A DNA stretch of 40,240 nt from Poseidonibacter ostreae (GCF_009208075.1 NZ_WFKJ01000028.1:1-40240); one strand, 5' to 3'. Shown: positions 20,089 to 34,623, counted from the stretch's first letter. Numbers and translations: made by a program. Notes: generated by a model not told the origin, from the letters alone.

Positions 20089-20114
20089 AAGAAAAAAGCC
20101 TAAGCTTTTTTCTT
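20089..20114. terminator. Hairpin terminator at the end of ovoA
   Basis: An 11-bp perfect stem, AAGAAAAAAGC (20089-20099) with GCTTTTTTCTT (20104-20114), and a 4-base loop that includes the ovoA stop codon. Read on the minus strand it ends in a T-rich run, so it should terminate the four-gene operon ending with ovoA. Confidence 0.7.
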
Positions 20115-22190
20115 CCAAATTGACATTTGAGAGATTGAGTGTTGGTATTTTCTATTTGTTTCTTTAATTACAAATGGTACATCTATAGTTTCTTGTAATT
20201 CAAACCCTTTTAATTCAGTTTTTAAAGTATCTAAAGTTGAAACTTCTTTATTATCTTTAATATAACCACCAAGCCAGTTTTGTTTTGGTGTATACTCTTC
20301 AAGCCAAGTATAAGGGCTTAATAAAACTAATAATCCATTGTCATTAACTCTACTTGGAATATCATCAATAAACTTTTGTGGATAGTATAATCTATCAATT
20401 AAGTTTGAACAGAAAATTAAATCATATCCTGTATAATTATCTTTTAAATTACAAGCATCTCCTTGCATAAATGAAACTTTTTCTTTTAAATCATCTAAAT
20501 CAAAATCTTTTAATGAAACTGTTCTTTCAGTAAAAATATCTCCCTCTTTTTTAATACTAAAAGTTAAAGAATCATATTTTTTTAGTTTAACTCCAACATT
20601 TATAAAGTTTGCAGAAAAATCAATACCTGTAACCTCATCAAAAGTTCTAGCTAATTCAAAAGTACTTCGTCCTACTGAACATCCTAAGTCTAAGGCTTTT
20701 TTTGTTTCAATATCTTCTAAATATGGCTTAAGTAATTCAGTTGAATTAACACAAAAGTTTTTAACACCAAAGTTTTCCTCACCATAATGAAACTCACAAT
20801 ATTGAGCTATTGACTCATCTGTTTCATAAACATTATCATTTAATTTTGTTCTATATTCGTTATCTGATTTCACGTATCTAAATCCTGCATGTTGGAAGAA
20901 ATGCTTTCTAAAAGCATATCTAGCTTCTCTTAAGATCTCATTTCCTAAAGAAATAAAAGATCCACCTTTCATTAAAGCGTGCCTATCATCAAATGTTGGT
21001 GTTGTAAAATCATCATAAATAGGATGTGTTTGAAAATTATCAAATGGATACGTTGGAGTGATACTCCACTGCCAGACATTTCCTACTACATCATAAAACT
21101 CATCAAACTTATACTTATCAACAGGAGATTGATTAAACTGCTTTAAACCTATATTTGCTTCTTTCTCATTTGCATTAACATAATCATATAATCTATAATA
21201 TTCATCTTCACTTGGAAGTCTTACTTCATATCCTAATTTTGAACTTTTAAATTTACAAAAAGCTTCTGCTTCGTATACATTTATATCTACTGGGTAATTT
21301 AAAGGTAGTGGAACAACTCTATTAATTTCTCTTAAAAAATAGTTACCATCAACTTTACTCCAAAACACTGGATGTTTTGCTTGTGAGAAATCTAACCACT
21401 CTTTTCCCTCATTTGTAAATAATTCAGGCTTATTATATCCACCCTCTTTTACAAACTCCAAAAACTCTCCATTTGATACTAAGTATTTTGAGGCTTTAAA
21501 ATCTTTTATATATGCTTTGTGAAAAGAAAATTCATTATCCCAACCATAATAAATAGGATTTTCTCTATTTTTTTCTAGTACAACCTCACCTGCTTTTACA
21601 TCAAGTAATTCATTTTGAGGGAAAGTATCACTTTGCTCATTTCCATATTCAAATATCTCTTCATCAATTAGTCTTTTAAAATCAAGTTCTCGAAGTAACA
21701 CTGAAGATGTTTCAATATGAATATTTTCATGTTCAATTCCCATTAGAATAATCCACATAGAACTTTCCCAATTAATTGGCATTGTAAACTCTAGTGTATC
21801 AATTAGGTTTAATACAATCTGCTTTACCTCTAATCTATACTCTTTTGTCTCTTCCACACTTGGCCAAGCATAATGTTTTGATTCTAAATCATCCCATGAC
21901 ATTTCATCAACACCAATTGCAAATTTTGATTCAAAATCTTTATTTACTCTTGTAGTTAAAATATTTGCTAGTGTTAATTTATTTACAAAAAATGTAGCTG
22001 TGTGACCAAAATAAAAAATCAAGGGATGTCTTAATCTATTTGGTTGTTTATATATACACTCTTCATCTTTTAATAATTCAAATAGTTTTTCATCTAATTC
22101 ATAAGTTTGAAGAAAATATTTTTTTATCTCTTCTCTTTTTTCTTCAACTGTACCCTCATTTAAATTTATAGTATTTTTAATATAATTCAA
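20100..22190 (-). CDS. ovoA: OvoA: 5-histidylcysteine sulfoxide synthase / 4-mercaptohistidine N-methyltransferase
   Basis: 696 residues in three domains. An N-terminal DinB-like domain (about 15-190) carries the iron-ligand motif H154-x3-H158-x-E160 ('IEHENIHIETS'). A formylglycine-generating-enzyme/SUMF1-like sulfatase domain follows (about 200-450, 'DVVGNVWQWSITPTYPF', 'MKGGSFISLGNEILREARYAFR'). Last is a SAM-dependent methyltransferase domain (about 470-696, motif I 'ALDLGCSVGRSTFELA'). This is the full architecture of OvoA, the non-haem iron enzyme that joins cysteine to C5 of histidine with O2 and later methylates the product to give ovothiol A. The separate C-S lyase OvoB is not in the window. 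It is the last gene of an operon with RraA-like, cyclotransferase-like and TPR genes. Confidence 0.93.
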   Translation of the reverse strand: MNYIKNTINLNEGTVEEKREEIKKYFLQTYELDEKLFELLKDEECIYKQPNRLRHPLIFYFGHTATFFVNKLTLANILTTRVNKDFESKFAIGVDEMSWDDLESKHYAWPSVEETKEYRLEVKQIVLNLIDTLEFTMPINWESSMWIILMGIEHENIHIETSSVLLRELDFKRLIDEEIFEYGNEQSDTFPQNELLDVKAGEVVLEKNRENPIYYGWDNEFSFHKAYIKDFKASKYLVSNGEFLEFVKEGGYNKPELFTNEGKEWLDFSQAKHPVFWSKVDGNYFLREINRVVPLPLNYPVDINVYEAEAFCKFKSSKLGYEVRLPSEDEYYRLYDYVNANEKEANIGLKQFNQSPVDKYKFDEFYDVVGNVWQWSITPTYPFDNFQTHPIYDDFTTPTFDDRHALMKGGSFISLGNEILREARYAFRKHFFQHAGFRYVKSDNEYRTKLNDNVYETDESIAQYCEFHYGEENFGVKNFCVNSTELLKPYLEDIETKKALDLGCSVGRSTFELARTFDEVTGIDFSANFINVGVKLKKYDSLTFSIKKEGDIFTERTVSLKDFDLDDLKEKVSFMQGDACNLKDNYTGYDLIFCSNLIDRLYYPQKFIDDIPSRVNDNGLLVLLSPYTWLEEYTPKQNWLGGYIKDNKEVSTLDTLKTELKGFELQETIDVPFVIKETNRKYQHSISQMSIWKKKA

Positions 22191-25010: not shown

Positions 25011-25490
25011 TTAAACTAACTTCTCTTTTGAAATAACAATTCCATCAGGATCAACATATACATAATCACCCTCTTTAATATCAACACCATCAATATTTAA
25101 AGGAACATTGATTTGTCCTTCTTGAACTGGAATATACTTTTTTGGACAAGTACCAAGAGCAAGTAATCCTAATTCAAACTCTTTTGTTGTAACAGTATCT
25201 CTTACATATCCATTTACAATAATTCCTTCATAGTTATTATCACTTGCAAACTTCATTAAGTTATCACCTACAACTGCATAGTATTTTTTATCTACATCAA
25301 CAATTACAACTTTTCCTTTACCATCTTCATCTTTTAAAAGTACTGCTAAATCTTTATTATTTTTGTCTAGTTTAACTGTAATTGCTGTACCTCTAAATTT
25401 TACACTTCCACCATATGATTTAAAATCAGGCCCTAAAACTTCAGTTTTATCACTAAACTCATCACATAAATCTGCTGTGAAAAATCCCAT
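25011..25490 (-). CDS. RraA-family protein (RNase regulator or aldolase-like)
   Basis: 159 residues, essentially the length of E. coli RraA (161). It starts 'FFTADLCDEFSD', has 'VVGDNLMKFASDNNYEGIIV', then the 'NGYVRDT' R-D pair, and ends 'DGVDIKEGDYVYVDPDGIVI', all typical of the RraA / HMG-CHA aldolase family. E. coli RraA inhibits RNase E, but Campylobacterota are not known to have a classical RNase E (they use RNase J and Y). The protein may therefore be a small 4-hydroxy-4-methyl-2-oxoglutarate aldolase or oxaloacetate decarboxylase. It is the first gene of the ovoA operon. The name is a family name only. Confidence 0.88.
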   Translation of the reverse strand: MGFFTADLCDEFSDKTEVLGPDFKSYGGSVKFRGTAITVKLDKNNKDLAVLLKDEDGKGKVVIVDVDKKYYAVVGDNLMKFASDNNYEGIIVNGYVRDTVTTKEFELGLLALGTCPKKYIPVQEGQINVPLNIDGVDIKEGDYVYVDPDGIVISKEKLV

Positions 25491-27453: not shown

Positions 27454-27864
27454 ATGAAAGTAGTTACAGGAGTTGTAGGTAACGATATACATGTTGTTGC
27501 AAACAGGCTAATAGATATATCATTACAAGCACGAGGATTTGAAGTATTTAACTTAGGTGTTAATACTTATTTAGAAGAATTTCTTGATGCAGTTATAGAA
27601 ACAAATGCAGATGTTTTACTTATTTCTTCACTAAACGGCGAAGCTGAGGGTTGGTGTAGAGAAGTGAAAATTTTAAAATCAAAATATAAAAATCTTTTAG
27701 ATGATGTTGTATTTATGATTGGTGGTAACTTAGTTGTAGGAACTCTAAGTAGTGAAGAAATCGTTCCTAGATTTAAAGACTATGGTTTTGATTTAGTATT
27801 TCACCAAGTTGACTTAAATACAGGGCTTGATGCATTAGAAGAGTACTTGAAGGAGAAGAAATAA
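27454..27864 (+). CDS. glmS: Glutamate mutase sigma (S) subunit, B12-binding
   Basis: 136 residues, one cobalamin-binding domain. 'GVVGNDIHVVANRLID' is the lower-ligand loop: D11 and H13 of D-x-H-x-x-G are present, but the glycine is alanine (A16). 'VLLISSLNGEAEGWC' and 'FMIGGNLVVG' supply the S-L and G-G motifs that hold the nucleotide tail. With the E subunit it should catalyse the adenosylcobalamin-dependent rearrangement of L-glutamate to (2S,3S)-3-methylaspartate. It is first of four tightly packed genes. The stop codon TAA shares its last A with the ATG of the next gene. Here glmS means the mutase gene, not glucosamine synthase. Confidence 0.92.
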   Translation: MKVVTGVVGNDIHVVANRLIDISLQARGFEVFNLGVNTYLEEFLDAVIETNADVLLISSLNGEAEGWCREVKILKSKYKNLLDDVVFMIGGNLVVGTLSSEEIVPRFKDYGFDLVFHQVDLNTGLDALEEYLKEKK

Positions 27865-29231
27865 TGAGTTTACTTCAAGAAGAACGAGATATTATTATTC
27901 AAAATAAATATGCAGATAACTTTGATTTTGCAGAAATAGAAGAGTTTGTAAAAAATGCTTCTAAAGATTTGTTTATCTCACATAGATTTAAAAATGCAAA
28001 TAAAATGCTAGTTCAACCTCGTGGTGGTTTTCCAACATATCAAAAACAATATGATTTATATGAGTTTTTTGTAAATGCTGATGTTGATATATTACCTTTA
28101 ACTATTGATTCAAATACAAGACTTAATGACTATGCAACATCTGCTAAGATGCTTAAACTTTCTGAAGAAAATGAAGTTGATATGTTAAATGGATATCCAT
28201 TAGTAAATCATGGTTATAAAACAACTAGAAAAATGATTACACATTTTAATAAGCCAGTATCACTTCGTCATGGAACTCCAGATGCAAGACTTCTAATAGA
28301 AACAGCAATTGCTTCAGGAATATTTGAAATTGAAGGTGGTCCAATTACTTACCTTTTACCCTACTCTAAAAACTTCCCATTAGATAAAGCATTTTTATAC
28401 TGGAAATATGTTGAGCGAGTTTGTGCAAATTATTCAAAACTTAATGAACCAATTAATAGAGAATCATTTGGACCTTTAACTGCAACACTAGTACCTCCTT
28501 GTGTAACAATTGTAATTCAATTACTTGAAATGCTACTATCACTTGAAGAAGGTGTTAAATCATTCTCTGTATCTTTCTCACAAACTGGTTCTATGAATCA
28601 AGATATTGTAACTGGTGCAGTTATACGAAAAATGGCTAAGTACTACGCAGAAGAAATTGGATGTGGTGATGCATCTGTTCATTTAGTTTATCATCAATGG
28701 ATGGGAGCTTTCCCTACTGATAAAAACTTTGCAGAGTGTTTAATTAATACTTCAACTGTAATTGCTGCTATGGTTGGTGCTGATAAAATTATTACAAAAA
28801 CAAGAGAAGAAGCATCAGGAATTCCTACAAAAGAAGCAAATGCTAAAACAGTTGCAAATACGCAATATACACTTAGAATGTTAAATGGTCTTCCAAATGT
28901 AGTTGATAAAGAAGAAGAAGAAATTCTAACAGAAGAAGTTATGAGTATTATGGAAGCTGTTTTCAATGACCCAGCTGATACATTATGGAGAAAAGTATTT
29001 AACTCTATTAAAAATGGAACTATTGATGTTCCTTTCTCTCCACATATAATCAATCATAATGAAGTTGTAACAGTAAGAGATAAAAACAAAAACATTAGAA
29101 TTATCAAAAAAGGTAATTTACCAATAAGTGATAGATGTTTTGAGTATGAAAAAAAACAATGTGATTTAAATAAAGATGCCTCATCAATAGTAAATGACAT
29201 CATCCATGATATAGGAATTATGCAATGGTAG
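27864..29231 (+). CDS. glmE: Glutamate mutase epsilon (E) catalytic subunit
   Basis: 455 residues, slightly shorter than clostridial GlmE (483). The substrate-binding arginines are present: R53 in 'QPRGGFP', R86 in 'DSNTRLNDY' and R135 in 'SLRHGTPDAR'. So are E157, Y163 and Y167 in 'EGGPITYLLPYSKN', matching R66, R100, R149, E171, Y177 and Y181 of the clostridial enzyme at an almost constant offset. 'INRESFGPLTATLVPP' and 'ASGIPTKEANA' are also family signatures. The active site therefore looks intact and specific for glutamate. AAGGAG lies upstream of the start, and the end overlaps the next gene by 7 bases. Confidence 0.95.
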   Translation: MSLLQEERDIIIQNKYADNFDFAEIEEFVKNASKDLFISHRFKNANKMLVQPRGGFPTYQKQYDLYEFFVNADVDILPLTIDSNTRLNDYATSAKMLKLSEENEVDMLNGYPLVNHGYKTTRKMITHFNKPVSLRHGTPDARLLIETAIASGIFEIEGGPITYLLPYSKNFPLDKAFLYWKYVERVCANYSKLNEPINRESFGPLTATLVPPCVTIVIQLLEMLLSLEEGVKSFSVSFSQTGSMNQDIVTGAVIRKMAKYYAEEIGCGDASVHLVYHQWMGAFPTDKNFAECLINTSTVIAAMVGADKIITKTREEASGIPTKEANAKTVANTQYTLRMLNGLPNVVDKEEEEILTEEVMSIMEAVFNDPADTLWRKVFNSIKNGTIDVPFSPHIINHNEVVTVRDKNKNIRIIKKGNLPISDRCFEYEKKQCDLNKDASSIVNDIIHDIGIMQW

Positions 29232-30409
29232 AAAATAAACTTTTAATCGATATAGGAAGTACTTACTTTAAAGTAGCAACTTCTAGTAATGTTGAGCAAT
29301 ATTTTAGAGATTTTAATAAAGATATTTATGATGATTTAGTTAGTAAATGTTCAAGTACTTTAGATAAATTTAAAAAAGAAGAAGTATTTATTTGTTCATC
29401 TGCAAATGGTGGTTTATCTACTTTAGTAATAGGTGTTACAAACTCTTTTTCTTTAAAATATGCTACAAATATTGCATATAACTCTGGTATTAATATTATT
29501 GATACTGTTTTATATCAAGATATAGCAAAAGCTTCAGTTCCAAGTGATTTAATTGATGTTGTAATAATTGTTGGTGGAATTAATAGTGTTGATAATATCT
29601 TCAAAGAAGATTTATTTAATTACTTAGAAAATGTAAACTACTCAAATGTTGTATTTGCAGGTTCATCTAAAGATGCAGATTACTTAAGTTCAAATATTGA
29701 AAATCTAGTTTTAATTGAAAATGTAATTGATAATAAACTTCATGTAGTTGAAGAGCCTTTAAAAGAGTATTTAACTAATCTTTATCAAGCTGATATTATG
29801 GGTAAGGAAGATATTAAACATCTTTATGACTTAACATCAAATCAAATTTATTCAACTCCTTATATTGTAAATAAAACATTGCCTTTAATTGATTCTAAAT
29901 TTGCAGCAGTTAATCCATTTATTTTAATTGATATTGGAGGAGCTACAACTGATATTCATTATTCTAAAGATTTATCTTATGATAATATAGTAACTGAGAA
30001 TGAATATGATAGATTGGTATTTAAAAAACTTGGTGTTTTTAAATCACGTGAGTCATTAATCTTTGCAGCTAAAAACAATGAGTTTGTATATGAACTACTA
30101 GCTCATTTAAAAGTTACAGAAAATATCTTTAATGAAGATAGTAATAAAAGTTTAAGAATTCTAATGCAACTTGCAATTTTCTTAGTTTTATATAAAGTAT
30201 CAGAAGTTCATCCTTTATATATCAAGTTAAAATTACACTTATTAAAATCTGTTGTATTAACAGGTGGAATTACAAAAGTATTGAGTTTTGAAGAAGTAGA
30301 AGATATTATTGCATTTTTCTACAAGAAAATTTTAACTAGTGATGTTCATCCTGCAATTGTTTTAGATTCAAATTATGATATTTGGACTCTTGGAATAACT
30401 CAAAAATAA
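29225..30409 (+). CDS. glmL: MutL/GlmL-type ATPase, chaperone of the B12 mutase
   Basis: 394 residues of the ASKHA (actin/hexokinase-like) ATPase fold. 'LLIDIGSTYFKVAT' at the N-terminus is the phosphate-1 motif, and 'FILIDIGGATTDIHYSKDL' about residue 240 is the phosphate-2 motif. 'VVLTGGITKVL' near the C-terminus is the adenosine motif. MutL/GlmL proteins accompany glutamate mutases and are thought to reactivate or assemble the cobalamin holoenzyme. It is a little shorter than clostridial homologues (about 460). Its ATG overlaps the end of glmE, so the mutase and its helper are made together. Confidence 0.88.
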   Translation: MVENKLLIDIGSTYFKVATSSNVEQYFRDFNKDIYDDLVSKCSSTLDKFKKEEVFICSSANGGLSTLVIGVTNSFSLKYATNIAYNSGINIIDTVLYQDIAKASVPSDLIDVVIIVGGINSVDNIFKEDLFNYLENVNYSNVVFAGSSKDADYLSSNIENLVLIENVIDNKLHVVEEPLKEYLTNLYQADIMGKEDIKHLYDLTSNQIYSTPYIVNKTLPLIDSKFAAVNPFILIDIGGATTDIHYSKDLSYDNIVTENEYDRLVFKKLGVFKSRESLIFAAKNNEFVYELLAHLKVTENIFNEDSNKSLRILMQLAIFLVLYKVSEVHPLYIKLKLHLLKSVVLTGGITKVLSFEEVEDIIAFFYKKILTSDVHPAIVLDSNYDIWTLGITQK

Positions 30410-30419
30410 AGGAAATAAT

Positions 30420-31991
30420 ATGTCAATAAATTGTATAAGAACACTAATAGAAGAAGCAAATATCTCAAACCCAGACAAAGTTGCTTTAACACTTGGACAT
30501 GAAAAGATTACATATAGTGAATTATTTACTAAAGTTAATCAAATTGCTTATTATTTAAATGAATTAAATATGCCAAGTAAAAGTAGAATTGGTATTTATT
30601 CAAATAAAGGAATAGACCAAGTTATTGCAATACTTGCTATTTTATCAACTGATTATATCTTAGTTCCTTTAACTAAATTACTTAAACAAGAACAAGTTGA
30701 ATATATAATAAATGATTGTAATATCGAATGTATTATTACTGATAAAATCAAACTTGAATCTATTGAAGAAATCAACTTTAAAGGTAATGTAATCTCTTAT
30801 GAAACAGCTCATAAAGACCTACCATCTTTTGAAGAAATATATAAATATTATAATAAACCTTATGAATGTAATATCTCTGGACATCAAAATGCTGCAATTA
30901 CTTATTCATTTGGAATGAGTGGAAAACCTAAAGGTATTGTAATTTCACATAGAAACTTTATTGATTCTGCTCGTGTTGTTTCTCAATACTTAGAATTAAA
31001 AGAAGAAGATGTAATTTCAGGAACATTATTATTTAATCTTGATTATGGATTAAATCAAATCTTTTGCTCACTATACAAAAGAGCAACATTAGCACTACAT
31101 AGATTTGTTTTACCTAATGATTTTTTCAATCATATTATCAATGATAAAGTAACAGTATTACCTCTAATGCCTATTAATTTAACAGATATGTTTGATGAAG
31201 AAGAGAATAGACTTCCAAGTTCTGAATTATTACAAAATGTTAGAATTATCACATCTTCAGGTGGTAATGTTACAAATAAAATGATTACAGATGTAGAAAA
31301 ATACTTTAGTAATGCAAAGTTTTATTCAATGCATGGATTAACAGAAGCATTTAGATCAACTTATTTAGATCCATCTCAACTTAAAATAAGACCTGATTCA
31401 ATTGGAAAAGCTATTCCTGATGTTGAATTATATGTAATTGATGAAGATGGTAATGAGTGTGCTCCTAGAGTTGTAGGAGAGTTAGTTCATAGAGGTGGAT
31501 ATATTTATCAAGGTTATTGGAAAGGTCCAAAACAAACAGCTCAAAGATTTAAATCTGCTCAAATTTTAAAAAACATCATTAATCTTGATGGAGAATTAAA
31601 TGACGAAATAGTTGTTGCTACTGGAGATTATGTTTATAAAGATGAAGAAGGTTATTTATACTTTGTTTCAAGACAAGATAATATGATTAAAACTAGAGGC
31701 TTTAGAGTAAGTCCTTATGAAATAGAGTCTGTGGTTTCTAAAAATATCCAAGATATTACTCAATGTGCAGTATTCTCAATTGAAAATAAAGAGATTGAAG
31801 AAGAAATAGTTTTAGTATATACTGCAAATAGTGAATTAAGTGCTAAAGAGATTACATTTGAATTAAAAAAACACTTAGCATCTTATATGATTCCTAGTAA
31901 AATCATATATAAAAAGTCATTACCTCTTATTCCCTCAGATAAAAATAAGATTAATATAGATGAATTAAAGAGAGAACTTACTAGTAAATAA
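30420..31991 (+). CDS. AMP-forming acyl/aminoacyl-adenylating ligase in the glutamate mutase operon
   Basis: 523 residues of the ANL adenylating superfamily. The P-loop motif A3 is divergent: 'ITYSFGMSGKPKGIVISHRN' instead of YTSGSTG-x-PKG. Other motifs are good: 'SMHGLTEA' (A5), 'VATGDYVYKDEEGYLYF' (A7), 'RQDNMIKTRGFRVSPYEIE' (A8) and a C-terminal lysine in 'PSDKNKINIDEL' (A10). It resembles the acyl-CoA ligases and stand-alone adenylation enzymes found beside exosortase or natural-product genes. It lies 10 bases after glmL with AAAGGA before its ATG and is followed at once by a hairpin, so it is the last gene of the operon. The substrate may be 3-methylaspartate or something derived from it; that is inference. 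Confidence 0.9.
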   Translation: MSINCIRTLIEEANISNPDKVALTLGHEKITYSELFTKVNQIAYYLNELNMPSKSRIGIYSNKGIDQVIAILAILSTDYILVPLTKLLKQEQVEYIINDCNIECIITDKIKLESIEEINFKGNVISYETAHKDLPSFEEIYKYYNKPYECNISGHQNAAITYSFGMSGKPKGIVISHRNFIDSARVVSQYLELKEEDVISGTLLFNLDYGLNQIFCSLYKRATLALHRFVLPNDFFNHIINDKVTVLPLMPINLTDMFDEEENRLPSSELLQNVRIITSSGGNVTNKMITDVEKYFSNAKFYSMHGLTEAFRSTYLDPSQLKIRPDSIGKAIPDVELYVIDEDGNECAPRVVGELVHRGGYIYQGYWKGPKQTAQRFKSAQILKNIINLDGELNDEIVVATGDYVYKDEEGYLYFVSRQDNMIKTRGFRVSPYEIESVVSKNIQDITQCAVFSIENKEIEEEIVLVYTANSELSAKEITFELKKHLASYMIPSKIIYKKSLPLIPSDKNKINIDELKRELTSK

Positions 31992-31992
31992 T

Positions 31993-32020
31993 ATAAATAT
32001 AGCATTTTTGCTATATTTAT
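31993..32020 (+). terminator. Hairpin at the end of the glutamate mutase operon
   Basis: A 12-bp perfect stem, ATAAATATAGCA (31993-32004) with TGCTATATTTAT (32009-32020), TTTT loop, starting two bases after the ligase stop codon. The stem is AT-rich and the T-run after it is weak, so efficiency is uncertain. Confidence 0.5.
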
Positions 32021-33462: not shown

Positions 33463-34623
33463 ATGACTCTAAGAGAAAAGTTCTCTCCAATGTGTTTTTT
33501 ATCAGCATTAGGTGCTGGTGGTTTATCTGTATCATTTTTTATGTATCTGATGTTTTTAGTACCACATGAGGGTTCACCAATGGCAACATACGATTTTATT
33601 ATAATTGAATTAATGAAAGGCTCATGGCTTTCACTTGTTATCTCTTTTTCACTTGTATTTATTATAGCTTTTGCATATTTTCATTTTAAACTTCTATTTT
33701 GGAATACAAAACAATTTATTTTATACAAAAAAACACAAAACTATCATAATTTGATTAATTCAAATGCAGAAATATCATTAATGACTATTCCTTTGACATT
33801 TACAATGAGTATAAATGTATGCTTTGTTTTAGGTGCAGTTTTTGTTCCCGGTCTTTGGGATATTGTTGAGTATTTATTTCCTTTTGCATTAATAGGTTTT
33901 TTACTTACTGGATTTTATGCATTAAAAATATTTTTCAACTATTTTTCTAGGCTTTTAATTACAGGAGATTTTGATTTTACATCAAATAATAATCTATCTC
34001 AAATGATTTCAATTTTTGCCTTTTCTATGGTAGCAGTTGGTTTTGCAGCACCTGGAGCTATGAGTCATAATATTGGAATTAATGCAATAGGAATATTTGG
34101 AGCACTATTTTTTGCTTCTTTATCTATTTTACTATTAGTTATAAAACTAACACTTGGTTTTAAAAACATGTTTGAACATGGAGTATCTGTTGAGGCTTCA
34201 CCATCACTATGGATTATAATTCCTATTTTAACTCTTTTAGGAATTACATTTGTTAGAGTATCTTTTGGTTTAGATCATAACTTTAATGCAAGTATTGATA
34301 AATCATCATTATTTACTTTAACTTCTGTAATCGTATCTTTACAAATCATATTTGGTATTTTAGGATATAAAGTAATGAAGCAAATTGGCTACTTTGAAAA
34401 GTTTATAGAAGGTGAAATAAAATCTCCTGTTTCTTTTGCACTTATTTGTCCAGGTGTTGCTTTTATGGTGTTTGGGATGTTCTTTATAAACTTTGGGTTA
34501 ACATATAATGAGGTAATTAGTAAATACTCTTTAATCTATTTTATTTTAATGTTGCCTTTTATGTTTGTACAATATAAAACTGTAATGTATTTCTTTAAAT
34601 TGAAGAAAAAATTCTTATTTTAA
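33463..34623 (+). CDS. TDT/TehA-like membrane transporter (TsoY-like)
   Basis: 386 residues with about ten membrane helices. The start 'FSPMCFLSALGAGGLSVSFF', the repeated 'FAAPGAMSHNIGINAIGIFG' and the glycine-rich helices recall the tellurite-resistance/dicarboxylate (TDT) transporter family. The N-terminus looks most like the TsoY branch seen in Campylobacterota, some members of which are selenoproteins; that assignment is from memory. No in-frame TGA is present here, so this copy would have no selenocysteine. The substrate is unknown; anions or sulfur compounds are possible. Monocistronic. Confidence 0.75.
   Translation: MTLREKFSPMCFLSALGAGGLSVSFFMYLMFLVPHEGSPMATYDFIIIELMKGSWLSLVISFSLVFIIAFAYFHFKLLFWNTKQFILYKKTQNYHNLINSNAEISLMTIPLTFTMSINVCFVLGAVFVPGLWDIVEYLFPFALIGFLLTGFYALKIFFNYFSRLLITGDFDFTSNNNLSQMISIFAFSMVAVGFAAPGAMSHNIGINAIGIFGALFFASLSILLLVIKLTLGFKNMFEHGVSVEASPSLWIIIPILTLLGITFVRVSFGLDHNFNASIDKSSLFTLTSVIVSLQIIFGILGYKVMKQIGYFEKFIEGEIKSPVSFALICPGVAFMVFGMFFINFGLTYNEVISKYSLIYFILMLPFMFVQYKTVMYFFKLKKKFLF

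Follow-up and report, generated by a model that had tools for sequence, protein, structure and literature searches.

Glutamate mutase (GlmS and GlmE, accompanied by GlmL) turns glutamate into 3-methylaspartate in the methylaspartate pathway of glutamate fermentation, known from clostridia and from the glmES-mal-fumD genes of Escherichia coli O157:H7. In vicenistatin production glutamate mutase is found with VinN and related methylaspartate-activating enzymes, ANL-superfamily proteins with a pocket of Asp, an aromatic residue, Ser and Arg. PMC7476758 lists a 'glutamate mutase pathway' to 2-ketobutyrate (citing Abramsky et al. 1962). Here we compare with these systems a glutamate mutase operon at positions 27454-31991 of a 40,240-nt window from Poseidonibacter ostreae (GCF_009208075.1, NZ_WFKJ01000028.1:1-40240); the window is the whole stretch of DNA analysed, and all positions are counted within it. 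The operon belongs to a module that has GlmS, GlmE and GlmL in common with the fermentation pathway but whose other partners are an aminotransferase and two proteins, one of the ANL superfamily and one RraA-like. Many marine bacteria have the module, and the glutamate mutase it encodes stands there outside fermentation, the methylaspartate cycle and typical antibiotic clusters, which suggests that 3-methylaspartate is put to a use not yet described.

The glmS-glmE-glmL-ligase operon is confirmed, with the genes, spacing and closing hairpin that an initial annotation of this DNA had given it. Its four open reading frames, all on the + strand, encode GlmS, the cobalamin-binding subunit (27454-27864, 136 amino acids); GlmE, the catalytic subunit (27864-29231, 455 amino acids); GlmL (29225-30409, 394 amino acids); and the ANL-superfamily protein, or 'ligase' (30420-31991, 523 amino acids). 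glmS and glmE overlap by 1 base and glmE and glmL by 7, and a gap of 10 bases separates glmL from the ligase gene. The hairpin 3′ of the ligase gene (31993-32020, + strand; z = -3.2) has two perfect 12-base arms, 31993-32004 and 32009-32020, around a 4-base loop.

Family matches and conserved residues identify GlmS and GlmE as a glutamate mutase that depends on B12 and whose active site is unchanged. GlmS matches PRK02261 with 161 bits, exceeding the cut-off of 110; in its base-off motif D11, the cobalamin ligand His13 and the GG are invariant in 96/96 homologues, the last G of DxHxxG being replaced to give DxHxxA. GlmE falls slightly short of the TIGR01503 cut-off (377.2 of 390.1 bits) and passes Pfam PF06368 (391 bits), and its residues 18-432 align to the solved glutamate mutase of Clostridium cochlearium (E 2e-82). 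From this alignment we took 14 positions that correspond to the active site of the C. cochlearium structure. All are invariant in 100/100 homologues, which bears out the earlier statement that no active-site residue of GlmE is missing. The C. cochlearium arginine claw, E171, Y177, Y181, K326 and E330, which bind substrate or cofactor, all have their match in GlmE, where the claw is R53/R86/R135 and E157, Y167, K312 and E316 are among the residues kept. The short and divergent GlmL is likely an ASKHA-type mutase reactivase or chaperone: it scores 99.6 bits against Pfam PF13941, above the gathering score, and 78 bits against the family model NF040745 (cut-off 475), with the match confined to residues 6-249.

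Unlike the fermentation pathway, the module comes without methylaspartase. This enzyme (TIGR01502) was over cut-off in 0/36 GlmE-bearing Campylobacterota genomes and was missing from 16 of 17 gammaproteobacterial carriers; the single match, in Pseudomaricurvus (530 bits), indicates that the search was able to detect it. The initial annotation had described an operon lacking any catabolic partner and had counted a methylaspartase elsewhere in the genome as contrary evidence. No methylaspartase over cut-off was found in the P. ostreae genome, so for this enzyme the description stands; the search did not extend to mesaconase or citramalate lyase. Pseudomaricurvus alkylphenolicus carries the module together with a bona fide methylaspartase elsewhere in its genome. 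A vicenistatin- or exosortase-like route with a carrier protein and a pyridoxal 5′-phosphate (PLP) decarboxylase is not supported for P. ostreae, whose genome has no match over cut-off to TIGR03099 (the exosortase-A PLP decarboxylase family) and whose only carrier protein is AcpP, encoded in the fab cluster between fabG and fabF.

The four genes, earlier described as a cluster, leave out at least one member of the module. An RraA/HMG-aldolase-family protein is encoded at 25011-25490 on the - strand, divergent from the operon, and we count its gene as part of the module, though it lies outside 27454-31991, because of its co-occurrence and constant divergent position. When 298 Campylobacterota genomes were sampled evenly, GlmE was found in 31 and the ligase (threshold E ≤ 1e-60) in exactly those 31; the RraA-like gene was present in all 31 and in 3 of the 267 genomes lacking glm genes (hypergeometric P ~5e-39, shared ancestry uncorrected). 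Among 101 loci examined, 82 have the RraA-like gene in the surrounding stretch; it diverges from glmE in every case, with a median of 556 bases between the two. In the genus Poseidonibacter two unrelated genes are inserted between it and glmS. An aspartate-type aminotransferase (AAT) gene adjoins the module in 34 loci and is frequent beside gammaproteobacterial copies. The order that recurs is AAT (where present), the RraA-like gene on the opposite strand, glmS, glmE, glmL and ligase, with flanks otherwise unrelated. In one Campylobacterota genome unrelated genes, most of them on the opposite strand, fill ~5.7 kb between glmE and the ligase gene, and clustering of open reading frames gave no glmL.

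The module is conserved, self-contained, transferable and not peculiar to the Arcobacter group. It is also present in marine Gammaproteobacteria and in betaproteobacteria. A wider scan, with each species represented by a single genome, found 226 GlmE relatives. The best 80 of these, at 79-99% identity, include genomes of the Arcobacter group and Sulfurimonas and, beyond them, Colwellia, Amphritea, Neptuniibacter, Thalassotalea, Vibrio hannami, HTCC2143, Haliea-type genomes, betaproteobacterial bins and one Rhodothermales bin. The Rhodothermales copy, on an 8.3 kb contig of a metagenome-assembled genome, is the sole one labelled outside Proteobacteria and Campylobacterota, and may be a binning error. 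On the midpoint-rooted GlmE tree parsimony separates Campylobacterota from all others by one change, so a single transfer between phyla suffices. Within the Colwellia maritima family the cassette ligase occurs in 11/297 genomes at 74-100% identity, with GlmL directly upstream in 11/11 copies; the next-best ligase matches drop to ≤41% and are TIGR03098-type proteins. A look for the module on plasmids yielded only remote homologues. Among 96 flanking proteins scanned no Pfam family occurred more than 4 times and no further conserved partners were seen; in one family (f10) the genes downstream of the module are housekeeping genes of yidD/yidC/jag/mnmE type. The search of other genomes that had been proposed for the cluster and its neighbours finds the cluster well beyond the Arcobacter group, and no recurrent biosynthetic genes beside it.

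The RraA-like protein has the same fold as RraA and the HMG/CHA aldolase-oxaloacetate decarboxylases. Its R97-D98, a metal/pyruvate-site pair as in the aldolases, is present in 79/79 homologues as part of a G75...R97-D98 motif, whereas E. coli RraA has R-Q at the pair and no G75. Within this fold, HMG/CHA aldolases act as oxaloacetate decarboxylases via pyruvate enolate (PMC5065237). Two more RraA-like paralogues, 48% identical, are encoded in the P. ostreae genome (G000:C95:2058-2537 and G000:C89:27072-27551). The AAT that adjoins the module is of the aspartate/aromatic type (PRK09257, 570-576 bits), with the PLP lysine and two carboxylate-binding arginines kept in 32/32 sequences.

The remaining partner, the ANL protein, matches Pfam PF00501 with 199 bits. 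Its closest named family, and best NCBIfam model, is the exosortase-A-associated acyl-CoA ligase TIGR03098 (435 bits, under the 592 cut-off), with which it has the motif GLTEAFRSTYL in common. VinN is the top match to its substrate-binding stretch among all PDB sequences. The specificity determinants of VinN, D230, F231, S299 and R331 (PMC11253843), correspond to D208, Y209, S280 and R312, each invariant in 94/94 homologues; the position of VinN K330 is taken by F311. No other solved structure fits this pocket as well as VinN does, which makes methylaspartate plausible as its ligand. The same pocket residues are present in most of the TIGR03098 relatives compared, and a methylaspartate-like ligand is thus predicted rather than proven.

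The TIGR03098 pocket itself, VinN-like with Asp, Tyr or Ala, Ser or Thr, and Arg, suggests that those ligases may be loading enzymes for an amino acid resembling methylaspartate or aspartate. A PLP decarboxylase gene adjoins the ligase gene in the two TIGR03098 plasmid loci examined, unlike in the module, and a carrier gene lies within the cluster in Sinorhizobium and nearby in Aureimonas.

Whether the ANL protein adenylates is doubtful, because its P-loop is altered and its A10 lysine not conserved, unlike in its TIGR03098 relatives. The P-loop reads YSFGxxGxPKG, with F164 in place of Ser/Thr in 94/94 homologues, and the A10 site is a longer, variable loop with K508 in 70/94 and K510 in 43/94; in 9/94 the loop (506-512) has no lysine at all. 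The P-loop (YTSGSTG) and A10 lysine (NGKxDR) are intact in 21/21 TIGR03098 proteins. Residues of ribose, Mg and hinge type are retained in 94/94 homologues (A5 E309, A7 D403, A8 R418 and D420), and the A8 lysine, K424, in 93/94. The A8 lysine serves the second half-reaction (thiolation) and the A10 lysine adenylation (PMC11253843). This pattern would be that expected of a non-adenylating ANL protein, and the protein is possibly one; PtmA1, as described in PMC6594144, which cites it, is a precedent. The initial proposal that methylaspartate is made and then activated by an adenylating ligase is in this way divided: the pocket agrees with its substrate, while its adenylation step is not supported by the residues. 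The judgement stops at doubt since some lysine is kept in the loop of most members.

We tentatively favour a scheme in which the module makes and uses (2S,3S)-3-methylaspartate on a route to 2-oxobutanoate. GlmS and GlmE would convert glutamate to 3-methylaspartate, which would not be removed by methylaspartase. An AAT, encoded next to the module in many Gammaproteobacteria and presumably a resident enzyme in Campylobacterota, would turn it into 3-methyloxaloacetate, and the RraA-like enzyme would decarboxylate this to 2-oxobutanoate by analogy with its oxaloacetate-decarboxylating aldolase relatives. The ANL protein, holding methylaspartate in its VinN-like pocket, would be less likely an ATP-dependent ligase than an enzyme that does not adenylate or a partner that binds the product, conserved adenylation residues having been lost. 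The proposed flow from glutamate through methylaspartate to 2-oxobutanoate is the same as in the glutamate mutase pathway to 2-ketobutyrate, from which the module differs in that its later steps are inferred and that its carriers also have IlvA.

Several observations weigh against this scheme. It gives no reason for the ANL protein accompanying the mutase everywhere, and the A10 loop has some lysine in 85/94 homologues, which leaves room for weak or altered adenylation. The RraA-like protein passes the RraA cut-off (146 bits against 136) and falls below the cut-off of every aldolase model, so that it scores as RraA and not as an aldolase; its position 101, which we take to be a possible third acidic site of aldolases, is not acidic. 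A Campylobacterota counterpart of the gammaproteobacterial aminotransferase, dedicated to the module, was sought and rejected (0/298 genomes at E ≤ 1e-50), so the transamination step must be borrowed there. IlvA is present in 31/31 Campylobacterota genomes with glm genes, so 2-oxobutanoate already has a source; on the same ground we rejected the idea that the module serves solely to supply an isoleucine precursor.

A different and rather unlikely reading keeps the ANL protein as an adenylating enzyme that would pass 3-methylaspartate to coenzyme A, to a carrier or to an amine, on the way to a cell-surface group or a small metabolite, while the AAT and RraA-like protein supply or remove substrates. 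It would account for the VinN-type pocket and the invariant E309, D403, R418 and D420; K508 or K510 could replace the A10 lysine, and the TIGR03098 relatives do adjoin a PLP decarboxylase and a carrier protein. It has to contend with the Phe that all homologues carry in the P-loop and with the unconserved A10 lysine, when every TIGR03098 protein compared is intact at both; with a genome in which AcpP is the only carrier and TIGR03099 has no match over cut-off; and with the lack of recurrent biosynthetic neighbours among the flanking proteins. The same residues set the module's ligase apart from VinN, as do F311 for K330 and the want of any carrier or decarboxylase partner found.

Retention of the A8, thiolation lysine beside a non-conserved A10, adenylation lysine would also suit a PtmA1-like enzyme performing the second half-reaction only, on methylaspartyl adenylate or another activated acid made elsewhere, and in PtmA1 and PtmA2 the half-reactions are separated (PMC6594144). 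We consider this improbable. In Campylobacterota genomes a single ligase of this kind appears at E ≤ 1e-60, no adenylating partner of the family is visible, and there is no candidate acceptor. That the ANL protein is instead a mutase accessory, one that binds the product or handles the cofactor as a partner to the short GlmL and is not a pathway enzyme, would match its strict linkage to glmL and glmE, its adenosine-site residues kept beside altered adenylation residues, and the truncated family match of GlmL, but we know of no precedent, the AlphaFold model (pLDDT 58, C-terminal half mostly <40) is too poor for an interface test, and we regard this reading as very doubtful.

Taken further, the favoured scheme would describe a horizontally transferred, B12-dependent marine route from glutamate via 3-methylaspartate and 3-methyloxaloacetate to 2-oxobutanoate, dependent on an ANL protein that keeps the methylaspartate pocket without adenylation. 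In this full form, and as an undescribed route, the proposal is unlikely, though we think it worth stating. No description of the module was found in the literature searched, a search that most subscription journals lay outside. Five to six genes are now defined as a testable unit. Were the route true, they would be candidate genes for a pathway from glutamate mutase to 2-oxobutanoate. With the ANL protein, a very large superfamily would have another natural member that does not adenylate, after PtmA1, and where genomes label the RraA-like protein an RNase regulator, it would be assigned a metabolic function.

Two other genes of the window may be mentioned. At 33463-34623 (+ strand) a TsoY-family protein (503 bits) is encoded, unrelated to the module and syntenic in the Arcobacter group. 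OvoA, the 5-histidylcysteine sulfoxide synthase of ovothiol production, is encoded at 20100-22190 (- strand) with both domains over cut-off, and lies near the module in several Arcobacteraceae.

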